This document shows, one piece after another, positions 9,329-62,690 of a stretch of 62,936 nt of DNA. A program made the translations under genes and the position numbers. The stretch comes from Pectinatus frisingensis (GTDB lineage Bacteria > Bacillota > Negativicutes > Selenomonadales > Selenomonadaceae): assembly GCF_015732285.1 (NCBI RefSeq), contig NZ_WIQU01000068.1:1-62936 (forward strand), in the 5' to 3' direction. The notes beneath the pieces were generated by a model that searched no databases, was not told the origin of the DNA, and saw only the letters and a program-made list of their open reading frames with translations. How positions within the stretch are numbered: the first letter of the stretch is position 1; the number at the start of each line of letters is the position of its first letter.

Positions 9329-10873
9329 ATGAGGGCTATAATCGAGATAATTATAGCGGCTCTTGTTGCTGTTATCTTGGGATTTGCTGGCGGGTATGCA
9401 ACGCGTAAGAAGAAGGCTGAAGAGGCTATTGGTTCGGCAGAAACGGAAGCAAAGCGTATTGTTGATTCAGCACAAAAAGAAATTGAAACAAGAAAAAAAG
9501 AAAGTATTCTTGAAACTAAAGAAGAAATACATCGTTTGAGACAGGAAATTGAGCGGGAAACGCGGGAAAGACGCAATGAACTACAGCGTCAGGAACGGCG
9601 TTTAATGCAAAAAGAAGAAAATCTTGATCGTAAAGTAGATGGACTGGAAAAGAAAGAAACTGTACTTTCCCGTAAGGAAAGTGAGATTGATAAAGTGCGT
9701 GAATCGGTTAATGTTATGCACGCAAAGCAGTTGAGTGAACTCGAACGTATTTCAAGTCTGACGATGGAAGAAGCCAAAACGATACTCTTGGCAGATGCTG
9801 AAATGGCAATAAAGCACGATAAAGCACTAATGATAAAAGAATATGAACAGCAGGCTAAGGATGAGGGCGAAAAGAAGGCACAAAGCATAATCGCTCAGGC
9901 TATCCAGCGGTGTGCAGCCGATCAAGTAGCAGAAACTACTGTTTCGGTAGTGGCGCTGCCTAATGATGAAATGAAAGGTCGCATTATCGGTCGTGAAGGA
10001 CGGAATATAAGGGCATTGGAAACATTGACCGGCATAGATCTTATTATTGATGATACGCCGGAAGCAGTTATCTTGTCGGGATTTGATCCGGTAAGAAGAG
10101 AAATTGCCCGTACTGCTCTGGAAAAGCTTATAACTGATGGGCGCATTCATCCGGCGCGTATTGAAGAAATGGTTGAAAAAGCTAAAAAAGAAGTTGACCA
10201 GCGTATTAAGGAAGCTGGCGAACAAGCATCCTTTGACAGCGGGGTGCATGGACTTCATCCTGAACTTATTCGTTTATTAGGTAGATTGAGATATCGTACT
10301 AGTTATGGACAGAATGTATTGAATCATTCTGTGGAAGTCGCTCATTTGGCAGGTGTTATGGCAGCTGAGTTGGGCGTTGATGTACAGCTGGCTAAGCGTG
10401 CGGCTTTACTGCACGATATTGGTAAGGCTGTTGATCATGAAGTAGAAGGTTCACATGTGACGATAGGTGCTGATTTGGCACGTAAATATCGCGAATCAGC
10501 CAATATTGTAAATGCTATTGCTGCGCATCATGGCGATGAAGAACCGAGAACTGTGGAAGCCGTTCTAGTGGCTGCAGCTGATGCAATTTCAGCAGCCCGT
10601 CCGGGAGCACGCAGGGAAAGCTTGGAATCTTATCTTAAACGTTTGACTCGTCTGGAAGAAATTGCAGAATCGTTTGAAGGGGTTGAACGATCTTTTGCAA
10701 TTCAGGCCGGCCGCGAAATAAGGATAATGGTAAAACCTGACAAGATAGATGATGTGGCGTCTGTTGGATTGGCGCATGATATCGTTAAAAAGGTTGAAAA
10801 TGAACTTGAATATCCTGGACAGATAAAGGTAACGGTCATTCGGGAAACTCGTGTAGTTGACTACGCTAAATAA
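9329..10873 (+). CDS. rny: Ribonuclease Y
   Basis: Membrane-anchored endoribonuclease that starts mRNA decay. The 514 residues show an N-terminal membrane helix ([20 protein letters not shown]), a long coiled coil rich in Glu/Arg/Lys (about 28-190), a KH domain with [15 protein letters not shown] (about 213-227) and an HD domain with catalytic H362-D363 in [12 protein letters not shown]. The start is odd: AAAGGAGG (9321-9328) abuts the ATG at 9329 with no spacer, and a stop lies 13 bp upstream, so no earlier start exists. Initiation at ATA or ATC codons 9-12 nt downstream would give better spacing and the usual short N-terminus. Confidence 0.95.
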
Positions 10874-51658: not shown

Positions 51659-52969
51659 AGTTCGCAAAATTCAAGGTAACTCCGAAGAGATTAAGCGACC
51701 GATTTTTGCCTTTTTTCTTGAACCTGTTGCAGTGTATCCGGCTTAATATAGCAGTGACTCATTGACCAGTCTTCGCTGTATTCGATCAGGTATGTCGTAA
51801 CCAGCCGGATATAAGAATCCATACTGGGGAAAATTCCTACGACAGTTGTCTGGCGGCGAATTTCCCGATTGAGTCGCTCCAATATATTGTTAGAAGCAAT
51901 TTTACGAAAGTCTATTGGGGTAAAATCATAAAACTGCAGTGAATCCTCTAGGCCATCTTCTAAAACGGCTGTCGCTTCCGGATAAGATTTTCCAACAGAT
52001 TCTATGAAAGAATGAGCATATTCCCTGGCGCTGTCGTAATCAGGTTGCAGCCAAATTTGTTTTAGCCTTCCGACAAACCAGGCTTTTTTCTTTGCCGGAA
52101 TATGAGCCAGGATATTTCGCATGAAATGGACTTTACACCGCTGCCAAGCACATTGCAAAAAAGATTCATTGATCGCTTTTACCAGGCCCTTATGGGCATC
52201 GGAAACGACTAACCACGCATTTTCCAGACCTCGTTGTTTGAGCTTTTCAAATACAGCTTTATAGGTGCATTTGGATCCCTCCTGCATCGGCTCAACGGCT
52301 AATACATCGCGGTGACCCGTTTCGTCCAGACCGATTACGATCGCTACCGCCATGTTTTGTACTCGGTGATCATAGCGAATTTTTTCATATAAAGCATCCA
52401 CCCATAGTACCGGATAGATATTCTTTAGCGGTCTGGTTCGAAAAGTTTGAACCTGATCATTAAGCTCTTTAGTGATCTGTGATACTTGGCTGCAGGAGAT
52501 CGAATCAATGCCTAAACTTTTGCCCGGTTTTTCAATTTTACGGGTGGAAACACCATACATAGGCTTACTGAATAACCTGCAGGAGCGCCATTTCTGAGCG
52601 TTTTTTCTCTGTGACGAAAAAAGGAATATAGCCGCCTTTTCTTAGTTTCGGAACGAATAAATACATGGTTCCCAGGCGAGTATCATAGCGGCGTACACGA
52701 TAGCCGGAACGGTATCCAGACCGTTCATCGGTTCTTTCCGACTTGGCAGCATTAATTTTTGCATCCACTTCGGCTTCCATGAGTTTTTCGCAAAGCCACT
52801 TGAGCATAGCAAGCAGGGGATCGTCTTCGGTCATGAATTGTAATAGCATTTTTTCCAAAGGTACGTTAGAATGGGAGTAAGCCATCGGTTTTCAACTCCT
52901 TTTGGGTTTGTTTGGGCACTTACCTTTTTCGGAGTTACCGATGGTTTTTCCTATTCTCTTTTGCGAACT
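51659..52969 (-). mobile_element. IS256-family insertion sequence, decayed
   Basis: About 1.3 kb, bounded by an 11-bp terminal inverted repeat AGTTCGCAAAA (51659-51669 and the complement at 52959-52969). A second shared inverted segment GGTAACTCCGAA lies just inside each end (51675-51686, 52928-52939). The transposase inside is broken. No 8-9 bp target duplication is seen next to the ends, so one flank may have been rearranged. Confidence 0.8.
51691..52885 (-). pseudogene. IS256-family transposase (Mutator type), interrupted
   Basis: The reading starts at 52885 with MAYSHSNVPLEKMLLQF and continues as a Mutator-type transposase N-terminus (ERSGYRSGYRVRRYDTRLG). After LLQVIQ a TAA replaces the Glu codon expected in the family sequence (52565-52567), and a few bases later the frame shifts, by about two deleted bases. 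The remainder, ending at 51691, carries VLWVDALYEKIR, VIGLDETGHRDVL, VVSDAHKGLVKAI and SNNILERLNREIRRQT, including the DDE residues. With both a nonsense codon and a frameshift it should be inactive. Confidence 0.85.
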
Positions 52970-53682: not shown

Positions 53683-54495
53683 TTACACATGCATAGTACG
53701 CTGAAAGTCCAGTTTATTTTTACTCGAAAGCGTGTTTTTATATAATTCTAGGCGAAATACGCATTTGTCAGCTCTGGTGGTCGAAGTTGTCAGCTCAAAT
53801 ACATAACCGGAATCTAAATGGGATATACGTTCGATTTGATAACCAGGAATACTTGAAGTGCATTTTAAGAGTTTGGCGGTAGCACCTTTGATTATAATAG
53901 CTTCAATCGTTTCTGATGCATGATACAAGTTAAGTGAGTATTGGTTAGTTAATGTATCATACAGGGAAATCGCTTCAAAATTAAATTGTTCGATTCCATC
54001 GCAGAGATAATATGGTATATATGTATTTTCTAAAAGAAGCGGAGTGTTGTCAGCACATCGCAACCTGAGCAGATGGAACGCCTTGGGAGCGTTTTCGGGT
54101 AATTGCAGAGAGGCAATCAATTGTTTATCCGTTATGTCAATTACTTCTTTTATCAAAATGATAGAAGTTGGAACAGAACCGATGCTGCGGATATTTTCCG
54201 TAAAATTGTATAAGTAATTTATATTTCGTTTAAGTTTTGGATTAGAAATAAAGGATCCCCTGCCACGCTGACGAATAAGCAGTCCCTCTTCCACAAGACG
54301 ATTCATGCATTGACGCACAGTTGTCCGGCTGATATTTAGTACTCTGCATAGATCATTTTCTGGTATCATCTGATCATTGGGTTTTAAAACGCCTGACTGT
54401 ATTTGGATTTTTATATAAGAAGCCAATTGTTCATATAAGGGAATGTTTTTTTCTATAGAAAAATGAAACGTGTTTTTAAAATAATCAATGTCCAA
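53683..54495 (-). CDS. GntR-family regulator with UTRA domain
   Basis: The 270-residue regulator has a winged helix (IPLYEQLASYIKIQIQSG, then LCRVLNISRTTVRQCMNRLV and RQRGRGSFI) and a C-terminal UTRA ligand domain (HLLRLRCADNTPLLLENTYI). This HutC/TreR-type class usually binds a sugar or sugar phosphate. It is divergent from deoC and lies 184 bp away, so it is the likely controller of the PTS/glycyl radical enzyme operon. The start is TTG 54495 with GGGAGG 7 nt upstream. Confidence 0.9.
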   Translation of the reverse strand: MDIDYFKNTFHFSIEKNIPLYEQLASYIKIQIQSGVLKPNDQMIPENDLCRVLNISRTTVRQCMNRLVEEGLLIRQRGRGSFISNPKLKRNINYLYNFTENIRSIGSVPTSIILIKEVIDITDKQLIASLQLPENAPKAFHLLRLRCADNTPLLLENTYIPYYLCDGIEQFNFEAISLYDTLTNQYSLNLYHASETIEAIIIKGATAKLLKCTSSIPGYQIERISHLDSGYVFELTTSTTRADKCVFRLELYKNTLSSKNKLDFQRTMHV

Positions 54496-54601: not shown

Positions 54602-54664
54602 TTGCAATAATAAAATAAACCATTTATAATAAACATATGAATTGTATCATACATTTATTATAAA
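54602..54664 (+). promoter_or_regulatory. Promoter and operator of the deoC-PTS-GRE operon
   Basis: TTGCAA (54602-54607), a 17-bp spacer and a perfect TATAAT (54625-54630) form the promoter. An imperfect palindrome with 11-bp exact outer arms (54623-54633 and 54654-54664) and inner TATGA/TCATA pairs spans the -10 and start region. A regulator bound there would block initiation; the adjacent GntR protein is the obvious candidate. Confidence 0.6.
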
Positions 54665-54679
54665 GAGAGGATAATAGTA

Positions 54680-55390
54680 ATGAAACCAACAAAAAAAGCA
54701 AGTAAAATGACTGTTAAGGAATTAGCGGCCTATATTGATCAGTCTGTATTGAAACCGGAATTTACAGAAGATGATATTCACCGTTATATTCAGGAAGGTG
54801 TTGATGTTGGATGTGCGACAGTCTGCATTAATCCGTCGTCTTTACCCATAGCTGCCAAGCTCACTAAAGGAACAGATACGGCAATTTGTGTAGTATGCGA
54901 TTTTCCGTTCGGTACCAGCACGACTGCATCTAAAGTCCTGCAGGCGCGTGAATATTGCAGCCATTGGGAAATTAAGGAGCTTGATATCGTAGCAAATTTT
55001 GGCTGGATGCGCAGCGGCAAATGGGATGATGTGACGAAGGACATCGCAGCGGTTGCAGAAGCTTGTCATGAGTATAATACAAAAGTTAAGGTCATTTTTG
55101 AGACGGATGCACTTACAGTAGATGAAGTAAAAAAGGCTTGTGAATGTGCTATCGCAGCAAAAGCTGATTTCGTCAAAACTAGTACGGGCTTTTTGACCGG
55201 GCATGAAAACCATGGGGCTGCACCGGAAATTATTAAAGTAATGATTGATACCTGCAATGGCCGCATTAAAATTAAAGGCAGTGGTTGTATACGTACCAGA
55301 GAACACTTCCTGCAGCTTATTGATATGGGTATAGACCGTATGGGCGTGGGTTTCCGTTCTACGCCGGTTGTCTTGGGGTTAAAGGAATAA
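54680..55390 (+). CDS. DeoC-family class I aldolase
   Basis: The 236-residue TIM-barrel aldolase belongs to the deoxyribose-phosphate aldolase family: Schiff-base K166 in DFVKTSTGF, with D102 (ELDIV) and K199 (IKIKGSG) as the relay pair. Two regions depart from canonical DeoC: KxSGGIRT is KGSGCIRT, and the phosphate-binding RIGTSSG is replaced by RMGVGFRSTP (220-229). Context suggests cleavage of a deoxyketose phosphate made by the glycyl radical enzyme rather than nucleoside salvage. GAGAGG precedes the ATG. It is separated from the PTS by 162 bp with a hairpin. Confidence 0.88.
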   Translation: MKPTKKASKMTVKELAAYIDQSVLKPEFTEDDIHRYIQEGVDVGCATVCINPSSLPIAAKLTKGTDTAICVVCDFPFGTSTTASKVLQAREYCSHWEIKELDIVANFGWMRSGKWDDVTKDIAAVAEACHEYNTKVKVIFETDALTVDEVKKACECAIAAKADFVKTSTGFLTGHENHGAAPEIIKVMIDTCNGRIKIKGSGCIRTREHFLQLIDMGIDRMGVGFRSTPVVLGLKE

Positions 55391-55439
55391 TAATTATAAA
55401 AAGTAAATTTTATAGGTTGTAATAAAATTTCTTCATAGA

Positions 55440-55484
55440 AACAAGCTTACCAAAATAGTCAATTATTCTTTTGGTGAGCTTGTT
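55440..55484 (+). other. Intercistronic hairpin between deoC and the PTS genes
   Basis: AACAAGCTTACCAAAA (55440-55455) pairs with TTTTGGTGAGCTTGTT (55469-55484) with one mismatch. No T tract follows, so it is more likely an RNA stabiliser or processing site than a full terminator. Confidence 0.5.
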
Positions 55485-55552
55485 AAAATATATAGTTATT
55501 AAGCAATATTTATTTGATTTTGTTACATTTCTGTAATTGAGGAGGAATTGTT

Positions 55553-55978
55553 TTGATAGGAATTATTGTCAGCACGCATGGTAATTTTTGCAGTGAGATT
55601 GTCAATTCTGCAAAAATGTTTTGTGGAGAAATAAATAATATTGAATGTGTTGCTTTTCAGCCTGGAGAAAGTATAACCGAACTGCATGGGAAATATGATA
55701 GGGCAATAGATAAGTTGGATACTGCGGATGGATTGCTGATTTTTGTAGATCTTTTCAATGGGAGCCCATTCAATGTGGCATTGGAAAAAGCTTTTTCGAA
55801 TAATAAGATCCAGGTTGTGACAGGCGTGAATATGCCGATGCTGTTAGAAACTATTTTCCAGAGAATGACAACAGCTAATATAATGGATTTATTAGTTACA
55901 GCACAAAGCAGTGGTGATGCCGGTATAAAAACATCGCAGGAAATTTTGGTAAAACCTGCAGAGGAGGATGATTTGTAA
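55553..55978 (+). CDS. PTS EIIA component, mannose family
   Basis: The 141-residue phosphocarrier begins MIGIIVSTHGNFCSE with phosphorylated His9 and has GLLIFVDLFNGSPFN, as in ManX/AgaF-type EIIA. It takes phosphate from HPr. TTG is the start, 8 nt from GGAGG. It abuts the EIIB gene. Confidence 0.93.
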   Translation: MIGIIVSTHGNFCSEIVNSAKMFCGEINNIECVAFQPGESITELHGKYDRAIDKLDTADGLLIFVDLFNGSPFNVALEKAFSNNKIQVVTGVNMPMLLETIFQRMTTANIMDLLVTAQSSGDAGIKTSQEILVKPAEEDDL

Positions 55979-56457
55979 TGGATATTGTTCTTGCAAGGGT
56001 AGATGAAAGACTGATTCATGGGCAAGTGGCAATTAATTGGTCACGTTTTTCAAAATGTGAAAGGATTTTGATTTGTTCAGATGAAGTGGCAGATGATGAG
56101 CTTCGCAGTACACTTTTGGTGAAAGCGGTACCGCCAGGAATAAAGGCTAATGTTATTAGTTTGGGAAAGGCTGTGAAAGTATATAACAATCCCAAATATA
56201 ATTCTATGAAGGTCATGCTGCTGTTTCAAAATCCGAAAGATGCTTTTAAATTAATGGAAGGAGGTGTAGCTATTAGATGTATAAATGTAGGAGGCATGCC
56301 GTACCGTGAGGGAAAACAGATGGTTACGAAATCAGTTAGTTTAAGTAATGAAGATATTGAATATTTCAAAAAAATGCATAATTTAGGCATAGAACTTGAA
56401 ATTAGAACGCTTCCAACGGATAAGAAAATAGATTTGGCGGAAAAAATAAACTTTTAA
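55978..56457 (+). CDS. PTS EIIB component, mannose/sorbose family
   Basis: The 159-residue protein starts MDIVLARVDERLIHGQVA with phosphorylated His14 and continues with NVISLGKAVKVYN and INVGGMPYREGK. It phosphorylates the sugar as it leaves EIIC/EIID. Its ATG shares one base with the EIIA stop. Confidence 0.93.
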   Translation: MDIVLARVDERLIHGQVAINWSRFSKCERILICSDEVADDELRSTLLVKAVPPGIKANVISLGKAVKVYNNPKYNSMKVMLLFQNPKDAFKLMEGGVAIRCINVGGMPYREGKQMVTKSVSLSNEDIEYFKKMHNLGIELEIRTLPTDKKIDLAEKINF

Positions 56458-56481
56458 CATGATGCATAAGGAGGAGTATAC

Positions 56482-57279
56482 ATGTACGATATAAGTTTTT
56501 GGCAAATAATTGCCATTTTAGTTGTAGCAGCAATTGGAGGAATGGATAGCGTAATGGATCAGTTTGCGTTCTATCGCCCACTTACGACGTGCACTCTTTT
56601 AGGATTAATACTTGGAGATGTTACAACTGGTGCTATTATTGGAGGAACTTTGGAAATGATAACGCTGGGATGGATGAATGTAGGTGCTGCACAGGCTCCA
56701 GATCCACTTTTAGCATCCTTGATTGCACCAATACTTGTTATTATGGGACATCAAAGCATTGGCACCGGCATAGCAATGGCTATACCGGCTGCAGCAGCAG
56801 GACAAATCCTTGGAGTTATTACGCGGGCACTTCCTGTATATTTCCAGCATAGAGCGGATAAATGTGCTGATAATGGGAATTGTGCTGGTATTGCCATTAA
56901 TAATTTACTGCCATTAATTTTACAGGCACTTAGAGGTGCATTACCTGCTTACTTGATATTAGCCGCTGTTGGGACAGGAACTTTTCAAAATATGCTTGAT
57001 TTACTGCCAGTTTTTATTACCAAGGGATTGCAAGTATCTGGTGGATTTATCGTAGTTGTCGGATATGCACTCGTTATTAATATGATGGAAGCAAAATATC
57101 TAATGACTTTTCTGTTTTTAGGTTTTATATTAGCTGCATTTACAAATTTAAATCTTGTAGCATTTGGTGTTATTGGTACAATCATAGCTATTACTTATAT
57201 TCAATTGAATCCGAAGTATTTTTTTAAAAATATGAATAATACATCTAAAAAAATACTCGCAGAGGATGAACTAGATTAA
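56482..57279 (+). CDS. PTS EIIC component, mannose/sorbose family
   Basis: The 265-residue membrane protein has about seven to eight helices and the family signatures GGMDSVMDQFAFYRPL, LTGAIIGGTLEMITLGW-like region, and IGTGIAMAIPAAAAGQ. With EIID it forms the permease. AAGGAGG precedes the ATG. Confidence 0.92.
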   Translation: MYDISFWQIIAILVVAAIGGMDSVMDQFAFYRPLTTCTLLGLILGDVTTGAIIGGTLEMITLGWMNVGAAQAPDPLLASLIAPILVIMGHQSIGTGIAMAIPAAAAGQILGVITRALPVYFQHRADKCADNGNCAGIAINNLLPLILQALRGALPAYLILAAVGTGTFQNMLDLLPVFITKGLQVSGGFIVVVGYALVINMMEAKYLMTFLFLGFILAAFTNLNLVAFGVIGTIIAITYIQLNPKYFFKNMNNTSKKILAEDELD

Positions 57280-57293
57280 TTTGAGGTAAAATT

Positions 57294-58136
57294 ATGAAAA
57301 TGAATATGTCTGAAAAAATAAAAGTAACGAAACAGGATTTAGTAAGGTCTTGTGTATTATCTACGTTCTTATTGGCTGGATGGAATTTTGAAAGGATGCA
57401 GGCTATGGGGTTTTGTCATAGCTTACTGCCTATTATTAAAAGATTGTACAAAGGAAAACCTGAGGAAATCGTTAAAGCATTGAAGCGTCATTTAGTTTTT
57501 TACAATACTACGCCATTTATATCTAATGCGATATTAGGCATAACGATAGCGATGGAAGAAGAACGTGCAAATGGGGCAGAAATTGATGATAATACGATCA
57601 ATGCAGTAAAAGTCGGATTGATTGGACCATTGGCAGGAGTCGGAGATCCTCTTATTTGGGGAACTCTTCGTCCAATGATTGCTGCAGTAGGGGCAAGTAT
57701 GGCAATAACCGGGAATGTAATAGGTCCCATTTTGTTTTTTGTGATTTATAATGTGATACGCATAACTCTTATGTGGTTTGCATTAAAAATTGGCTACCAA
57801 AAAGGTGTTAATATTCTTGAAGACTTAAAAGGGAATATGTTAGAAAAACTCACAGAAGGTGCTTCTATTTTAGGGTTGTTTGTAATTGGAGCATTGATAA
57901 CAAAATGGACACATATTGATATACCAATCATTGTATCGGAATTTGTTAAGCAGGATGGTACGATGGCAATAACGACTGTTCAATCGATTTTAGACCAGCT
58001 GGCACCTGGTTTGGTGTCGCTTTTATTGACATTCCTCTGTATGAAAATATTAAAAAAAGGTGTATCACCTATTGCTGTCATTTTTGGAATGTTTGCATTC
58101 GGTATTATAGGTTCGGCACTTGGAATATTACAATAA
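57294..58136 (+). CDS. PTS EIID component, mannose/sorbose family
   Basis: The 280-residue protein has the family start (SCVLSTFLLAGWNFERMQ), FCHSLLPIIKRLY, VGLIGPLAGVGDPLIWGTLR and a hydrophobic C-terminus. It completes the IIABCD set. EIID exists only in the mannose family, which settles the class. GAGG lies before the ATG, 14 bp after EIIC. Confidence 0.93.
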   Translation: MKMNMSEKIKVTKQDLVRSCVLSTFLLAGWNFERMQAMGFCHSLLPIIKRLYKGKPEEIVKALKRHLVFYNTTPFISNAILGITIAMEEERANGAEIDDNTINAVKVGLIGPLAGVGDPLIWGTLRPMIAAVGASMAITGNVIGPILFFVIYNVIRITLMWFALKIGYQKGVNILEDLKGNMLEKLTEGASILGLFVIGALITKWTHIDIPIIVSEFVKQDGTMAITTVQSILDQLAPGLVSLLLTFLCMKILKKGVSPIAVIFGMFAFGIIGSALGILQ

Positions 58137-58214
58137 GCCTTAATGCCAATTTAAGTGAGGAAGAGTTAGACTCTTAATAGGGGGAAGTATAATATTAATA
58201 AGGATGATAAAATA

Positions 58215-58358
58215 ATGATTTCTGTGCTGGCCTACCAAAAACTAAAAAATAAGATTATAGAGCTGCAACATGAAAATGAAATCTTAAGGAAATTATTACC
58301 ATATTCATTTAGCAATAATTTATGCGATAAAAAAAACATTAATGGATATAAAGGCTGA
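58215..58358 (+). CDS. 47-residue coiled-coil protein upstream of the glycyl radical enzyme
   Basis: A short frame in the 249-bp gap between EIID and the glycyl radical enzyme: MISVLAYQKLKNKIIELQ, then HENEILRKLLPYSFSNN, and a polar tail ending at TGA 58356-58358. AAGGATG lies 8 nt before the ATG. Residues 5-28 form an amphipathic heptad pattern (L, K, I, L, E, I, L). One Cys (C37) is present, so it is not like the Cys-rich small subunits of some glycyl radical enzymes. No relative is recognised. It may be a small regulator or subunit, or a non-functional frame. Confidence 0.5.
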   Translation: MISVLAYQKLKNKIIELQHENEILRKLLPYSFSNNLCDKKNINGYKG

Positions 58359-58385
58359 TGATTTAGTGACGAAAGGGAAAATAAA

Positions 58386-60806
58386 ATGGAGTTTTTAGAA
58401 TTTATTCCTCAGCAAGAAAAAGATATCGATTTAGAAAGAATTCATCGTTTAAGAAAGACTATGCAAAATAGAAGGGCAAGTATATGCAGTGAAAGAGCAC
58501 GGCTAATTACAGAGTCTTTTAGAAGAACAGAAGGTGAAGACTATATCCTGCGTAAAGCAGAGGCGTTTGCATATATTCTCGAACATATGACGATTTATAT
58601 ACAAAAAGATAGTCTTATCTTTGGGAATCAAGCTAGCTGTAATTTTGCTGCTCCAATTTTTCCAGAATATTCGATTGATTGGGTTATTAATGAACTGGAT
58701 GAATTTGATCAACGCTCAGGTGATATATTTCAAATTTCAGCACAGGTAAAGCAAGAATTGCGAGAAATAGCAGTTTACTGGCATGGAAATACCCATGAAG
58801 ATGAAGTCATGAAAAATACTACAACATATATATTGCAGGCAGAAAAACAAGGAATATTACATCGCGGTGGTATTTCCATGTCGGGGGATGGGCACATTGT
58901 CCCAGATTATGCATTGATTTTACAAAAAGGTTTACGCTGGTTTCTTAATGAGGCAAAAATGAAACTGTCAGATAAATCATTAACAAAAGAAAATAAATCT
59001 TTTTATAAAGCTGTTATTATATCTCTGGAAGGTGCATTGCATTTTATTAAACGTTATTCAGCGTTGGCATATAAATTGGCTGAAATTGAAACGGATATAA
59101 CGAGAAAACAAGAACTTCTTGTTATAGGAAAAATGTGCGAAGCTTTAATGGAACAGCCAGTGCAGAATTTCTATGAAGGATGCGAAACCTGCTATTTAGT
59201 GCATATTTTACAAATGATAGAAAGTAATGGACATTCTTTCTGCTATGGACGTTTTGATCAATATATGTATAACCTTTATGAAAGAGATATACAAAAGGGA
59301 ACAATCACTAAAGAAAAAGCTTTAGAAATAATAACGCACTTGTTCTTGATGAACAGCAGCAATAATAAAGTCAGGCCGTATGGACATACTAAGTTTTCCC
59401 AAGGATACCCCCTTTATTCAAATCTTATGATTAGCGGATATAAACCAGATTGTAGTGATGGGACGAATGAGTTATCATATTTATGCATTGAAGCAATGAA
59501 TTTGACTAAAATGGCTGAACCAAACTTTTCTATGCGATATAATAAAAATACACCACGGTCTTTAGTTCGTTTAGCAGCTAAACTTATTAGGACAGGATGT
59601 GGAATGCCATCCATGTTTAATGATGAGGTCATAATAAAAAGTTTAGAAAATTTAGGAATCCCGTCTAAAGATGCACGTGATTATTGTGCAATCGGATGTG
59701 TTGAAATAGGTATACCGGGTAAATATGGACATCGGTCAACAGGCATGACTTATGTAAATTGGGGTAAGCTGCTGGAAATTATGCTATATAATGGTGTCGA
59801 CCCGGATTCCGGCATACAAATGCTGCAGATTAATGGAAAACAAGGAAGCAGTATTAATTATAATAATTATGATGAGGTCTGGAAAGCATGGGAAAAAGTA
59901 TTAAGGTTTTATTCCGATATTGCAGTAGATTGCGATAGAATTTGTGATAATTCGCTGGCTTTTTATGATTCGGACCCGTTTGCGTCATGTTTTGTCGACA
60001 ATTGTATGAAATTGGGTAAAACATTGAAAAACGGCGGCGCTAAATATGATGTTATTTCGCAGTCCAATATAGGACCGATAATTGTTGGCAATGCATTGGC
60101 AGTCATTAAAAAACTGATTTTTGATGATAAAAAAATTACATGGAATCAGCTTCTTAGTGCTATTAAAGAAAATTGGACAGGGAAAGAGGCCATGCATATC
60201 CATAAGTTGGTAAAGCAGGTCCCTAAATTCGGGAACGATGAAGATTATGTTGATAATATTGTCAAGGATGTATTTAACTCTTATTTAAAGCTACTGCCTG
60301 ATTATAAAACAAATAGATATGGAAAAGGTCCGGAAATAAGTTGCTATACGATGTCTACAAGCAACATCACATCATATGTGCCAAATGGTTTTGCTGTAGG
60401 AGCAACTCCAGATGGAAGAACAGCCAGAAGCCCGCTGAATGAAGGATGCTCACCAACACAAGGTACAGATAAAAACGGGCCAACGGCTGTAATAAATTCG
60501 GTTGCAAAACTCCCTAATGAGAAAATAGCTGCAGGTCAGTTATTAAATATGAGATTTTCACCAGGAACTTTAGCTGGTAATGAAAATCTTGATAAATTTA
60601 TAGATTTTTTGGAAGCAAGTGTATTAAAGGGTATCTTTCATAATCAATTTAACGTAGTCGGAACAAAGACACTTTTAGATGCCAAGAAATATCCTGAAAA
60701 TTATACGGATCTTATTGTGCGTGTAGCTGGCTACTGTGCTCAGTTTGTATCATTGATGCCGGAAACACAGGATGCAATTATAGCCCGCACGGAAAATAAT
60801 TGGTGA
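58386..60806 (+). CDS. Glycyl radical enzyme of the YbiW/PflD group
   Basis: The 806-residue enzyme has the catalytic YCAIGCVEIGIPGKYGHRS (C438, E440) and the glycyl radical loop VRVAGYCAQF with G782. It matches the pyruvate formate-lyase fold, but the C-CVE pattern marks a dehydratase/lyase rather than PFL (which has Cys-Cys). Segments such as GNQAS.AAPIFPEY, ATPDGR.A..PL.EG and GTD..GPTAVI resemble E. coli YbiW and PflD, which open 1,5-anhydrohexitol 6-phosphates. The substrate is inferred from that group and the PTS context. AAAGGG precedes the ATG; the activase gene follows 4 bp later. Confidence 0.9.
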   Translation: MEFLEFIPQQEKDIDLERIHRLRKTMQNRRASICSERARLITESFRRTEGEDYILRKAEAFAYILEHMTIYIQKDSLIFGNQASCNFAAPIFPEYSIDWVINELDEFDQRSGDIFQISAQVKQELREIAVYWHGNTHEDEVMKNTTTYILQAEKQGILHRGGISMSGDGHIVPDYALILQKGLRWFLNEAKMKLSDKSLTKENKSFYKAVIISLEGALHFIKRYSALAYKLAEIETDITRKQELLVIGKMCEALMEQPVQNFYEGCETCYLVHILQMIESNGHSFCYGRFDQYMYNLYERDIQKGTITKEKALEIITHLFLMNSSNNKVRPYGHTKFSQGYPLYSNLMISGYKPDCSDGTNELSYLCIEAMNLTKMAEPNFSMRYNKNTPRSLVRLAAKLIRTGCGMPSMFNDEVIIKSLENLGIPSKDARDYCAIGCVEIGIPGKYGHRSTGMTYVNWGKLLEIMLYNGVDPDSGIQMLQINGKQGSSINYNNYDEVWKAWEKVLRFYSDIAVDCDRICDNSLAFYDSDPFASCFVDNCMKLGKTLKNGGAKYDVISQSNIGPIIVGNALAVIKKLIFDDKKITWNQLLSAIKENWTGKEAMHIHKLVKQVPKFGNDEDYVDNIVKDVFNSYLKLLPDYKTNRYGKGPEISCYTMSTSNITSYVPNGFAVGATPDGRTARSPLNEGCSPTQGTDKNGPTAVINSVAKLPNEKIAAGQLLNMRFSPGTLAGNENLDKFIDFLEASVLKGIFHNQFNVVGTKTLLDAKKYPENYTDLIVRVAGYCAQFVSLMPETQDAIIARTENNW

Positions 60807-60810
60807 TTTT

Positions 60811-61719
60811 ATGGAAGAAAAAGGGATTATTTCGACTATTCAGCGTTATTCGATAAAAGATGGGCCGGGTATTCGCAGTACTGTATTTATGTCAGGGTGT
60901 AATTTACGCTGCAAATGGTGTTCTAATCCGGAACTTTTGGATATGTCTCCTAAGTATATGTATTTTGAGAATCGATGTGTGAGATGCGGTTCTTGTGTGG
61001 ATACTGCAGTAAATAATTCAATATCATTATCATCTAATGGATGCATAATTGATAGGGAAATGTGTACAAATTTGGATGAATGCATGGAAATCTGTCCTAA
61101 AGAAGCATTTGAGAAAATAGGCATGGAAATTACTGCAGATGATTTAGTAAAGAAATTACTTCGCGATAAGGTATTTTACAGTCAATCTGGCGGGGGAACT
61201 ACATTTTCTGGCGGAGAACCTGCTTTGCAGGCACGATTTGTGATTGAAGCAGCACAAAAACTCCGACAATATGGTATCAATACAGCATTGGATACAGCCG
61301 GTGCTGTTAAGTGGGATATTTTATCAGATATTATTAACCACATGGATGTTGTACTTTATGATATTAAGACGTATAAAACTAAAAACCATATTGCCTTTAC
61401 CGGCATCGATAATGGCATAATTCTAGAAAATGCACAACGTATAGCAAAATTGAAGAAAGATATGATTGTCAGGTTAATTATTGTTCCTGGATTTAATGAT
61501 TCATGGGAGGACTTAATAAGCAGGGTTAACTTTGTAAAAACTTTAGGATCAAGTGTAAAAAGAATTGATTTTATACAGTATCATACATTAGGCGTTGGTA
61601 AATATAAAAGATTGGGAATGAAATATCAGATTACCAAGATAAAAAAACTCGATACAAAATTGATTGAAAAAGTAATGAAAATTGCAGCAGATACTGGTAT
61701 AAAAGTAACTCTGCAATAG
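60811..61719 (+). CDS. Glycyl radical enzyme activating enzyme (radical SAM)
   Basis: The 302-residue activase has the SAM cluster motif C30-x3-C34-x2-C37 (GCNLRCKWCSNPE), an inserted ferredoxin-like region, and GGGTTFSGGEPALQ. It puts the radical on G782 of the upstream enzyme. The inserted region has C56/C59/C62 and C85/C91/C95, but the expected fourth Cys of the first motif is A66 and one of the second is replaced, so probably only one auxiliary 4Fe-4S cluster is complete. The start follows GGTGATTTT, 4 bp after the GRE stop. Confidence 0.93.
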   Translation: MEEKGIISTIQRYSIKDGPGIRSTVFMSGCNLRCKWCSNPELLDMSPKYMYFENRCVRCGSCVDTAVNNSISLSSNGCIIDREMCTNLDECMEICPKEAFEKIGMEITADDLVKKLLRDKVFYSQSGGGTTFSGGEPALQARFVIEAAQKLRQYGINTALDTAGAVKWDILSDIINHMDVVLYDIKTYKTKNHIAFTGIDNGIILENAQRIAKLKKDMIVRLIIVPGFNDSWEDLISRVNFVKTLGSSVKRIDFIQYHTLGVGKYKRLGMKYQITKIKKLDTKLIEKVMKIAADTGIKVTLQ

Positions 61720-61790
61720 AATACATACACATTATGTACAGGTTTTGATTGGTAAAGTTGAATTGCAAGAATAATTAGAGGTGAATATCT

Positions 61791-62690
61791 ATGGATAATA
61801 TAAGAATAAAAATGAGTATCAATATAGAATTTTCCAGAATTGCGCTTGGGTTTTGGCGACTGAATAAATGGAATATGTCAACAAATGAATTGGTCAATTT
61901 CCTAGGGGAATGTTTGGAATTAGGCATTACTACAATGGACAATGCTGATATATATGGAGATTATACCTGTGAAGAGTTATTTGGTAGAGCAATAAAAGCT
62001 GATCCATCATTACGCAGGAAAATGGAAATAATAACGAAATGCACTATTGTTTACCCTTCGGCAACAGCACGTGTCAAATACTATAACAGTAGTGAAAATT
62101 ATATTATTTCTCAGATAGAAAAGTCATTGAAAAACATGAACATTGATGAAATAGAAACATTGCTTTTACACCGTCCGGATCCTTATATGGATCCGGACGG
62201 TGTAGCAAGGGCATTCGACAAGTTATATAAATCCGGCAAAGTTAAAAGCTTTGGTGTTTCTAATTATTCATCATATGAATATGAAATGCTTAAATCATAC
62301 GTGAATGTACCACTTATCACTGATCAAATAGAGCTATCTTGTTTAAATATAGACAATATTGATAATGGAACAGTAGCCTTTTGTATGAAAGAAAAAATAC
62401 ATCCGATGATATGGTCGCCTTTGGCTGGAGGCAGAATACTCACTGGAACATCTGAAACGGAAAAAAGGTTAAAGAATGTATTGATGATTATCAAGAATGA
62501 GATTGGGGCAGATTCTATCGATGTAGTAGCATTTTCATGGTTGTTATCACATCCAGCAAAATTGGTGCCAATAACAGGTTCTGGGAAAATAACACATATT
62601 AAAAGAATGTTTAAGGCATTAAAATACAAATTAACACCAGAGCAGTGGTTTATGATATGGACAGCATCAAAAGGACATAAAATTCCATGA
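61791..62690 (+). CDS. Aldo/keto reductase, YdhF-like
   Basis: The 299-residue protein is close to E. coli YdhF: GFWRLNKWNMSTNELVNFL, TMDNADIYGDYTCEELFG, LLHRPDP and PITGSGKI. The catalytic tetrad D50, Y55, K83 and H127 is intact. It should reduce a carbonyl with NAD(P)H. In this operon the likely substrate is the small ketone or aldehyde released by the aldolase, taking the place of GldA. It lies 71 bp after the activase; AGAGGTG precedes the ATG. Confidence 0.88.
   Translation: MDNIRIKMSINIEFSRIALGFWRLNKWNMSTNELVNFLGECLELGITTMDNADIYGDYTCEELFGRAIKADPSLRRKMEIITKCTIVYPSATARVKYYNSSENYIISQIEKSLKNMNIDEIETLLLHRPDPYMDPDGVARAFDKLYKSGKVKSFGVSNYSSYEYEMLKSYVNVPLITDQIELSCLNIDNIDNGTVAFCMKEKIHPMIWSPLAGGRILTGTSETEKRLKNVLMIIKNEIGADSIDVVAFSWLLSHPAKLVPITGSGKITHIKRMFKALKYKLTPEQWFMIWTASKGHKIP

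Follow-up and report, generated by a model that had tools for sequence, protein, structure and literature searches.

A glycyl radical enzyme paired with a DeoC-like aldolase in a candidate catabolic regulon of Pectinatus frisingensis

We analysed a stretch of DNA from Pectinatus frisingensis, a member of the Selenomonadaceae (Negativicutes) (the window; 62,936 bases, an entire contig, G000:C35, of a 2.9-Mb assembly) in which one operon encodes a mannose-family phosphotransferase system (PTS), a glycyl radical enzyme (GRE) with its activase, a DeoC-like aldolase and an aldo/keto reductase (AKR). The GRE and the aldolase belong to a real, conserved system under one predicted operator. A reading of this DNA from its sequence only had proposed a variant of Escherichia coli anhydroglycolysis (reportedly the work of Ma et al.), and the two routes do share a similar logic; however, the substrate, intermediate and products of anhydroglycolysis are probably not right for this system, given that the GRE falls outside the YbiW group and that the aldolase is of the deoxyribose-phosphate aldolase (DERA) type. 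We give an even chance to a different reading, in which the GRE would turn an alditol phosphate or 2,5-anhydrohexitol phosphate into the phosphate of a 2-deoxyhexose (or 2-deoxypentose) and the DeoC-like aldolase would cleave the product.

All eight operon genes named in the sequence-only reading, and the divergent GntR gene, were recovered with the open reading frame (ORF) list and family models:

53683..54495, minus strand: GntR/HutC regulator with UTRA ligand domain (Pfam GntR and UTRA)
54680..55390, plus strand: DeoC-like class I aldolase of DERA fold (TIGR00126 deoC, 190 bits; cut-off 117)
55553..55978, plus strand: mannose-family PTS IIA (TIGR00824 EIIA-man, above cut-off)
55978..56457, plus strand: mannose-family PTS IIB (TIGR00854, above cut-off)
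56482..57279, plus strand: mannose-family PTS IIC (NF011647, above cut-off)
57294..58136, plus strand: mannose-family PTS IID (NF008315, above cut-off)
58386..60806, plus strand: GRE, 806 amino acids (TIGR01774 PFL2-3, 727 bits; cut-off 678)
60811..61719, plus strand: radical-SAM GRE activase (TIGR02494, above cut-off)
61791..62690, plus strand: YdhF-like AKR (Pfam Aldo_ket_red)

The PTS is complete (IIA, IIB, IIC and IID), neighbouring operon genes are separated by anything from a 1-base overlap (IIA/IIB) up to 249 bases, and the operon may continue beyond the contig end. The top structure matches of the AKR are two aldo/keto reductases (254 and 251 bits) followed by two chains of E. coli YdhF (246 and 245 bits), in agreement with its assignment as YdhF-like.

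The GRE clade and its aldolase partner

The GRE has the hallmarks of its family: the catalytic cysteine, the GCxE motif, the glycine of a C-terminal RVxGY motif and an adjoining activase. Residues C438, E440 and G782 stand where they had been reported and are invariant in our alignments. YbiW is indeed the closest characterized GRE (596 bits by phmmer against the PDB), ahead of glycerol dehydratase (530 bits), diol dehydratase (506 bits) and PflD (439 and 437 bits). A fold search with the AlphaFold model (mean pLDDT 84.5, below 50 in five short loops, several of them near pocket motifs) ranked the YbiW-type chains 6xs4 and 8id7 first, with glycerol/propanediol dehydratases close after. Relatives were gathered with a profile of three aligned GREs (80 of 585 matches kept). 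In a FastTree phylogeny of 155 GREs, the window GRE and 11 others form clade A (support 1.0), sister to the four-member clade B (support of A+B, 1.0). The two clades together lie outside the 77-member YbiW group (0.999), and the window GRE also lies outside the PflD group. The node joining A+B to the YbiW side has a support of 0.92 and the adjacent 78-member node just inside it only 0.20, which leaves the exact order of the nearest branches unsettled. The sequence-only reading depended on the enzyme not grouping with glycerol/propanediol dehydratases, and no such grouping appeared in this tree, in which choline lyases were not among the labelled references and propanediol dehydratase itself was not included. 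Membership among the glycerol dehydratases was considered and ruled out by the tree together with the position that we take to be Asp447 of the Clostridium butyricum glycerol dehydratase, a site occupied in the displayed clade A rows, as in YbiW, by Gly with a Thr beside it.

Clade A GREs are in most cases paired with one subfamily of DeoC-like aldolases. Of the 12 clade A GREs in the phylogeny, 10 have a gene of this subfamily no more than 10 kb away (the window, L060, L062, L063, G419, G405, G436, G422, G575 and G581, with a distance of about 8.5 kb in G575 and G581; G, L and C numbers are our handles for genomes, loci and contigs). The two unpaired members are L061, on a contig of 3,961 bases, and L067, which has an ordinary-type DeoC (31%) 2.8 kb off on the other strand. 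Outside the tree, a GRE in G718 (7.9-kb contig) has no DeoC in view, and G635 carries the DeoC gene beside a GRE remnant. Neighbours were also counted by tblastn around 109 distinct GREs, a non-random sample because they were chosen by similarity to the window GRE. Any DeoC was found within 6 kb of 5/6 clade A (four subfamily, one ordinary), 0/4 clade B, 1/69 YbiW-like and 0/30 other GREs, and within 10 kb of 5/6, 0/4, 2/69 and 0/30, respectively; the two YbiW-like cases (L042 and L087) both involve an ordinary DeoC. The fructose-6-phosphate aldolase-like Fsa showed the opposite distribution, at 0/6 clade A, 1/4 clade B, 47/69 YbiW-like and 2/30 other GREs within 6 kb, and at 0/6 clade A versus 48/69 YbiW-like GREs within 10 kb. 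DeoC in the place of Fsa, first noted in the window, is thus a conserved feature of clade A loci. The AKR is apparently not conserved, as none was seen in the ORF lists of the other clade A loci. A search of 398 genomes of the class of G244 returned no GRE at 1e-230 (without a positive control); elsewhere, clade A was seen in Erysipelotrichales. A third type of GRE–DeoC neighbourhood is that of L042 (G001:C24), where the gene of a YbiW-like GRE (49%) is followed at 0.3 kb by the ordinary-type DeoC gene.

The DeoC-like protein has the DERA fold in its predicted model (pLDDT 92.9): the 50 fold matches listed are all DERA-family chains, led by the Lactobacillus brevis enzyme (38% identity, TM 0.89). 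It retains D102, K166 and K199, which we take to be the counterparts of Asp102, Lys167 and Lys201 of E. coli DERA. All 16 aligned subfamily members carry the C-terminal loop G[YF][RK]S[TV]P rather than the canonical paired-serine phosphate loop (presumably S238/S239 in E. coli), and in all 16 the Schiff-base lysine motif is followed by an additional four residues. Genome G000, to which the window belongs, has in addition an ordinary DeoC (35% identical to the operon enzyme) in a cluster with a regulator gene (assigned by eye), a major facilitator superfamily (MFS) protein and a PfkB-family kinase, and this cluster looks like one for deoxyribose use. With its altered loops and this separate ordinary DeoC in the same genome, the operon enzyme looks, by sequence comparison, like a specialized paralog. 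The subfamily is present in 15 of 300 class genomes; a phylum scan found it in 1 of 398, the genome of the window itself, so that little of its range has been sampled. It also occurs on six Enterococcus megaplasmids (70–72%), with no GRE gene annotated beside deoC in the two of six neighbourhoods that were inspected. In two genomes of the window's family, a DeoC-subfamily gene sits (by eye) inside the ribosomal protein operon, between rplP and rplN:

L159, about 9885-10592: deoC in ribosomal protein operon (G513)
L160, about 9830-10552: deoC in ribosomal protein operon (G665)

The candidate operator and regulon

Upstream of deoC and in the neighbouring sequence, the following elements were found:

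54602..54630, plus strand: sigma-70-like promoter TTGCAA-17-TATAAT before deoC (10/12 matches)
54641..54654, plus strand: candidate operator ATTGTATCATACAT with core TGTATCATACA, a 5-1-5 palindrome; the only AWTGTATSATACAT match in G000
53953..53963, plus strand: second match to the core, inside the GntR gene (window pattern scan)
55440..55484, plus strand: strong hairpin with a 16-bp stem and no U-tract, between deoC and the PTS genes

The candidate operator directly follows the −10 box and ends 25 bases before deoC. The promoter scan as a whole gave 38 sites against 41.7 expected, so a single match proves nothing; the core TGTATCATACA occurs twice in the window against 0.03 expected. A search of five whole genomes from three genera for the 14-bp palindrome AWTGTATSATACAT located it at ten places (one in G000, one in G572, three in G575, three in G581 and two in G405, each of the latter two matching on both strands), and the reversed control pattern at none. 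Every place lies 22–86 bases before a gene of the GRE/DeoC system, as judged for two of the G581 places from coordinates. The palindrome precedes deoC in all five genomes, and it also precedes transport units in G575 (IIB-IIC-IID-phosphohexomutase) and G581 (ketohexokinase-EIIC-GH1 glycosidase), the unit IIA-IIB-IIC-IID-GRE-activase of G405 (whose IID is 82% identical to that of the window) and the unit DUF218-GRE-activase in both G575 and G581. Given this shared palindrome before deoC, transport and GRE units, the GRE, the DeoC-like aldolase and the importer look like one regulon. The first operator-led unit of G575 and G581 is deoC-transketolase-IIA, and a transketolase gene is also found in the deoC operon of G529.

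Orthologs of the GntR protein are encoded beside the same genes in G572 (84%), G575 and G581 (about 53%) and G405 (45.5%), and GntR is a candidate repressor of the operon; we infer that it would bind at the palindrome. In G572, the GntR and deoC genes stand without a GRE or PTS beside them, adjoining a transposase-like fragment (by eye). In the window, a Mutator-family transposase in two neighbouring frames (51691-52885), to which the G572 fragment is similar by eye, lies between a Gnd-like gene and the GntR gene. The hairpin folds with a z score of −3.86 over 55420–55520 and is possibly an RNA-processing or stability element. A DUF218 (YdcF-like) protein recurs with GRE/DeoC systems (L201, 4851–5612; L167, 1216–1977; L170, 2487–3260).

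Proposed pathway and alternatives

DERA-family enzymes form an acetaldehyde enamine and act on 2-deoxyaldose phosphates, and GREs of the diol-dehydratase and YbiW types act by abstracting hydrogen from a carbinol, with loss of the neighbouring oxygen. Combined, the two chemistries imply that hydrogen abstraction at C1 and loss of the oxygen at C2 would yield a 2-deoxyaldose phosphate. We therefore infer a GntR-controlled catabolic regulon in which the PTS would import and phosphorylate a sugar-like alcohol; the activated GRE would strip C2, the carbon adjoining the C1 carbinol, of its oxygen substituent to give the 2-deoxyaldose phosphate; the DeoC-like enzyme would cleave this through a lysine Schiff base, as DERA does, into acetaldehyde and a sugar phosphate that has lost two carbons; and the AKR here (or an alcohol dehydrogenase elsewhere) would reduce the acetaldehyde, balancing NADH. 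In the C6 version, a hexitol 6-phosphate, or a 2,5-anhydrohexitol 6-phosphate whose ring is opened (the option most similar to YbiW chemistry), would become 2-deoxyhexose 6-phosphate and then acetaldehyde and erythrose 4-phosphate (E4P). In the C5 version, our second choice, a pentitol 5-phosphate would become 2-deoxyribose 5-phosphate and then acetaldehyde and glyceraldehyde 3-phosphate (G3P). Erythrose 4-phosphate as a product would explain the co-regulated transketolase, which favours the C6 version. The pocket arguments for both enzymes are drawn from alignment.

Several loci bear on the input. The G581 unit of ketohexokinase, EIIC and GH1 glycosidase hints at a sugar-like substrate, and sorbitol-type PTS genes in G419 (about 3 kb from deoC) and G422 suggest an alditol. 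In G422 these genes belong to a second cluster, in which another DeoC-like gene (62%), preceded by the same core palindrome, accompanies another GRE (about 30% to YbiW; closest solved structure, glycerol dehydratase), an activase, a GntR gene, GutM (Pfam), a zinc dehydrogenase, a class II aldolase and a TIM-like protein; the GRE of this cluster occurs in 1 of 285 class genomes, making it a single case. The YbiW-side GRE, the DERA-type aldolase, the transketolase and the G581 ketohexokinase could all be united in a second radical anhydrosugar pathway: the GRE would open a 2,5-anhydrohexitol 6-phosphate at C2–O (radical at C1) to 2-deoxyglucose 6-phosphate, a DeoC-family 2-deoxyhexose-6-phosphate aldolase would release acetaldehyde and erythrose 4-phosphate, and the latter would pass to transketolase. 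Ketohexokinases phosphorylate 2,5-anhydromannitol, and deaminated glucosamine or a β-glucoside are possible sources of 2,5-anhydromannitol or -glucitol. In this fully specified form we regard the scheme as unlikely.

A number of observations weigh against the 2-deoxyaldose phosphate reading. The DeoC subfamily is accompanied by an intact clade A GRE in 7 of its 15 genomes, by a remnant in 1 (G635) and by none in the other 7, which implies another substrate source for the aldolase in some hosts. In a scan of 14 further loci, the 11-base core precedes deoC in two, both of G422 (L165 and L170); among the remaining 12 it lies far from deoC in L063 and was not found in the other 11. The type of PTS varies among clade A loci, and none was seen beside the clade A GREs of L060, L062, L063, G436 and G422. 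In G419, which is outside the 109-GRE set, an Fsa-like gene lies convergent just past the activase. The argument for C6 is weakened by the transketolase and phosphohexomutase genes (G529 and G575), as these could also serve in the use of pentoses or nucleosides. Some of these observations fit an ordinary DERA accompanied by an unrelated GRE, in which the aldolase would act on 2-deoxyribose 5-phosphate from DNA or nucleosides and co-regulation would reflect a shared inducer rather than a shared pathway: the 7 of 15 genomes without clade A, the G529 deoC operon with its transketolase and a PGM/PMM-family mutase, and the above-cut-off TIGR00126 score all agree with it. We nevertheless consider it rather unlikely in view of the conserved GRE–DeoC pairing, the same operator before deoC and GRE units, the separate ordinary deoC beside MFS and PfkB genes in G000 and the altered phosphate loop.

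The residues of the GRE bear on the alternative that the sequence-only reading had favoured, namely that the GRE converts a 1,5-anhydrohexitol 6-phosphate to 1-deoxyfructose 6-phosphate and that the DeoC-like enzyme, replacing Fsa, yields glyceraldehyde 3-phosphate and hydroxyacetone, the latter reduced by the AKR. We compared 192 positions that are at least 95% conserved in a 69-member YbiW group, leaving out those shared by the PflD group and the glycerol dehydratase group alike. Clade A has the YbiW residue as its commonest at 83 of them, clade B at 86, the glycerol dehydratase group at 51 and the PflD group at 29; with 90% within-group agreement required, the counts are 67, 70, 31 and 13, respectively. 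Single closer relatives of YbiW reach 125 (L041), 118 (L043) and 113 (L042). Clade A is thus intermediate rather than remote, which leaves room for a 1,5-anhydrosugar substrate and weighs against a 2-deoxyaldose product. YbiW as the nearest characterized GRE, and Fsa in most YbiW-like loci where DeoC sits in clade A, point the same way. Conversely, 101 positions are fixed in 12/12 clade A members and differ from the commonest residue of the three other groups. The motifs GISMSGDGH, YxHT[KR]FSQG[YH]PLYSNL, GCVE[TI]G[VI]PGKYGHR[AS]TGM, SQSNIGP and YTMSTSNITSYVPNG are fixed in clade A (read from the eight clade A rows displayed; some are common to clade B), and their YbiW counterparts are GNMTSGDAH, SHSKASAGSPLYQNV, GCIETAVGGKWGYRCTGM, SGLQVGI and YYAGTSSISANVPFG. 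From its tree position and divergent fixed motifs, the window GRE is YbiW-sided yet probably not a lyase of 1,5-anhydroglucitol 6-phosphate (AG6P).

The rest of the host genome argues similarly. G000 encodes three more GREs at E < 1e-100; one (C23) is 52% identical to YbiW with an activase and an Fsa-like gene adjoining, and another (C24) is 41% identical to PflD with an FrwC-like PTS gene, an activase and an Fsa-like gene. With both loci present, use of AG6P or 1,5-anhydromannitol 6-phosphate by the window genes, which would make a third copy of this function, is unlikely. DERA-family donors are acetaldehyde-like, and a DERA-family enzyme would be expected to release acetaldehyde rather than hydroxyacetone, contrary to the proposed cleavage of 1-deoxyfructose 6-phosphate; hydroxyacetone and G3P would, furthermore, not need the transketolase. 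The E. coli pathway itself is confirmed second-hand, in the part of PMC12441222 that deals with it. Taken together with the position of the GRE outside the YbiW group and its different motifs, we judge the 1-deoxyfructose 6-phosphate route distinctly unlikely. A canonical YbiW or PflD function was likewise set aside on the grounds of tree position, motifs and the two loci already in the host. The YbiW-related GREs of L039, L040, L043 and L059 (43–47% identity to YbiW) are clustered with genes that, by reading or annotation, encode ROK kinases, ribulose-phosphate epimerases and ABC transporters of the allose/ribose type, which suggests further GRE substrates.

The same 2-deoxyhexose 6-phosphate could also arise by C–N cleavage, if the GRE were to deaminate a 2-amino-2-deoxyhexitol phosphate with a logic like that of choline lyase. 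Glucosamine-6-phosphate-deaminase-like genes occur in two of four clade B loci (L036 and L037, one also with a PIG-L deacetylase), and a NagB-like gene (by eye) lies near the clade A GRE of L063. The G575 mutase has an archaeal phosphoglucosamine mutase as its best NCBIfam match (below cut-off, 200 of 439 bits), and mannose-family PTSs import amino sugars. However, no deaminase or deacetylase gene was seen in the window operon or the G405, G575 and G581 units, and several positions of the fixed motifs distinguish clade A from clade B, making this variant very improbable for the window. Clade B itself (53–57%; L036, G381:C8; L037, G355:C23; and L065 and L066, Chloroflexota) is perhaps an amino-sugar GRE pathway of its own: of L036 and L037, one locus has the PIG-L deacetylase and an Fsa-like gene and the other has EIIC and GH4 genes. 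We sought a single scheme from these amino-sugar links, and none fitted all clade B genes.

Comparison with known systems

This association of an importer with an oxygen-sensitive GRE and a DeoC-like aldolase, two enzymes also paired in other bacteria, may represent a novel route for fermenting a sugar alcohol or anhydrosugar. Among the papers listed by searches of open-licence PMC full text, none was found to describe a PTS operon in which a GRE is paired with DeoC. If the 2-deoxyhexose 6-phosphate reading is true, the system would comprise a radical reaction and an aldolase activity that we did not find described in the same literature, and would allow anaerobes, including some known from rumen and gut records, to ferment a polyol or anhydrosugar in redox balance. 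As a distinct GRE clade, a conserved aldolase partner and a predicted operator are now defined, the substrate can be sought directly.

Among known systems, the SPU loci contain a DeoC-like aldolase and RpiB; unlike the system described here, they are bacterial microcompartment loci, and the passages of PMC4207490 that describe them mention no GRE partner. The window aldolase resembles DERA (DeoC) in its fold and catalytic Asp/Lys/Lys, and differs in forming its own subfamily with a changed phosphate loop and a longer loop after the Schiff-base lysine. The B12-independent glycerol and propanediol dehydratases are likewise GREs that turn a 1,2-diol into an aldehyde, the mechanism that we propose for the window GRE, although the latter belongs to a different clade and has Gly at the Asp447 position. 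E. coli anhydroglycolysis, described in section 5.1 of PMC12441222, combines YbiW/PflD, FsaA/FsaB and GldA. Like the window operon as we read it, that pathway relies on PTS import, on a class I aldolase, on a reductase for a short carbonyl and on a GRE–activase pair whose substrate is a phosphorylated compound resembling a sugar. The window system differs from it in a GRE of a separate clade, an aldolase of the DERA rather than the transaldolase type, a transketolase in the window-type regulon of two genomes, and predicted products of acetaldehyde and E4P (or G3P) rather than hydroxyacetone and G3P.

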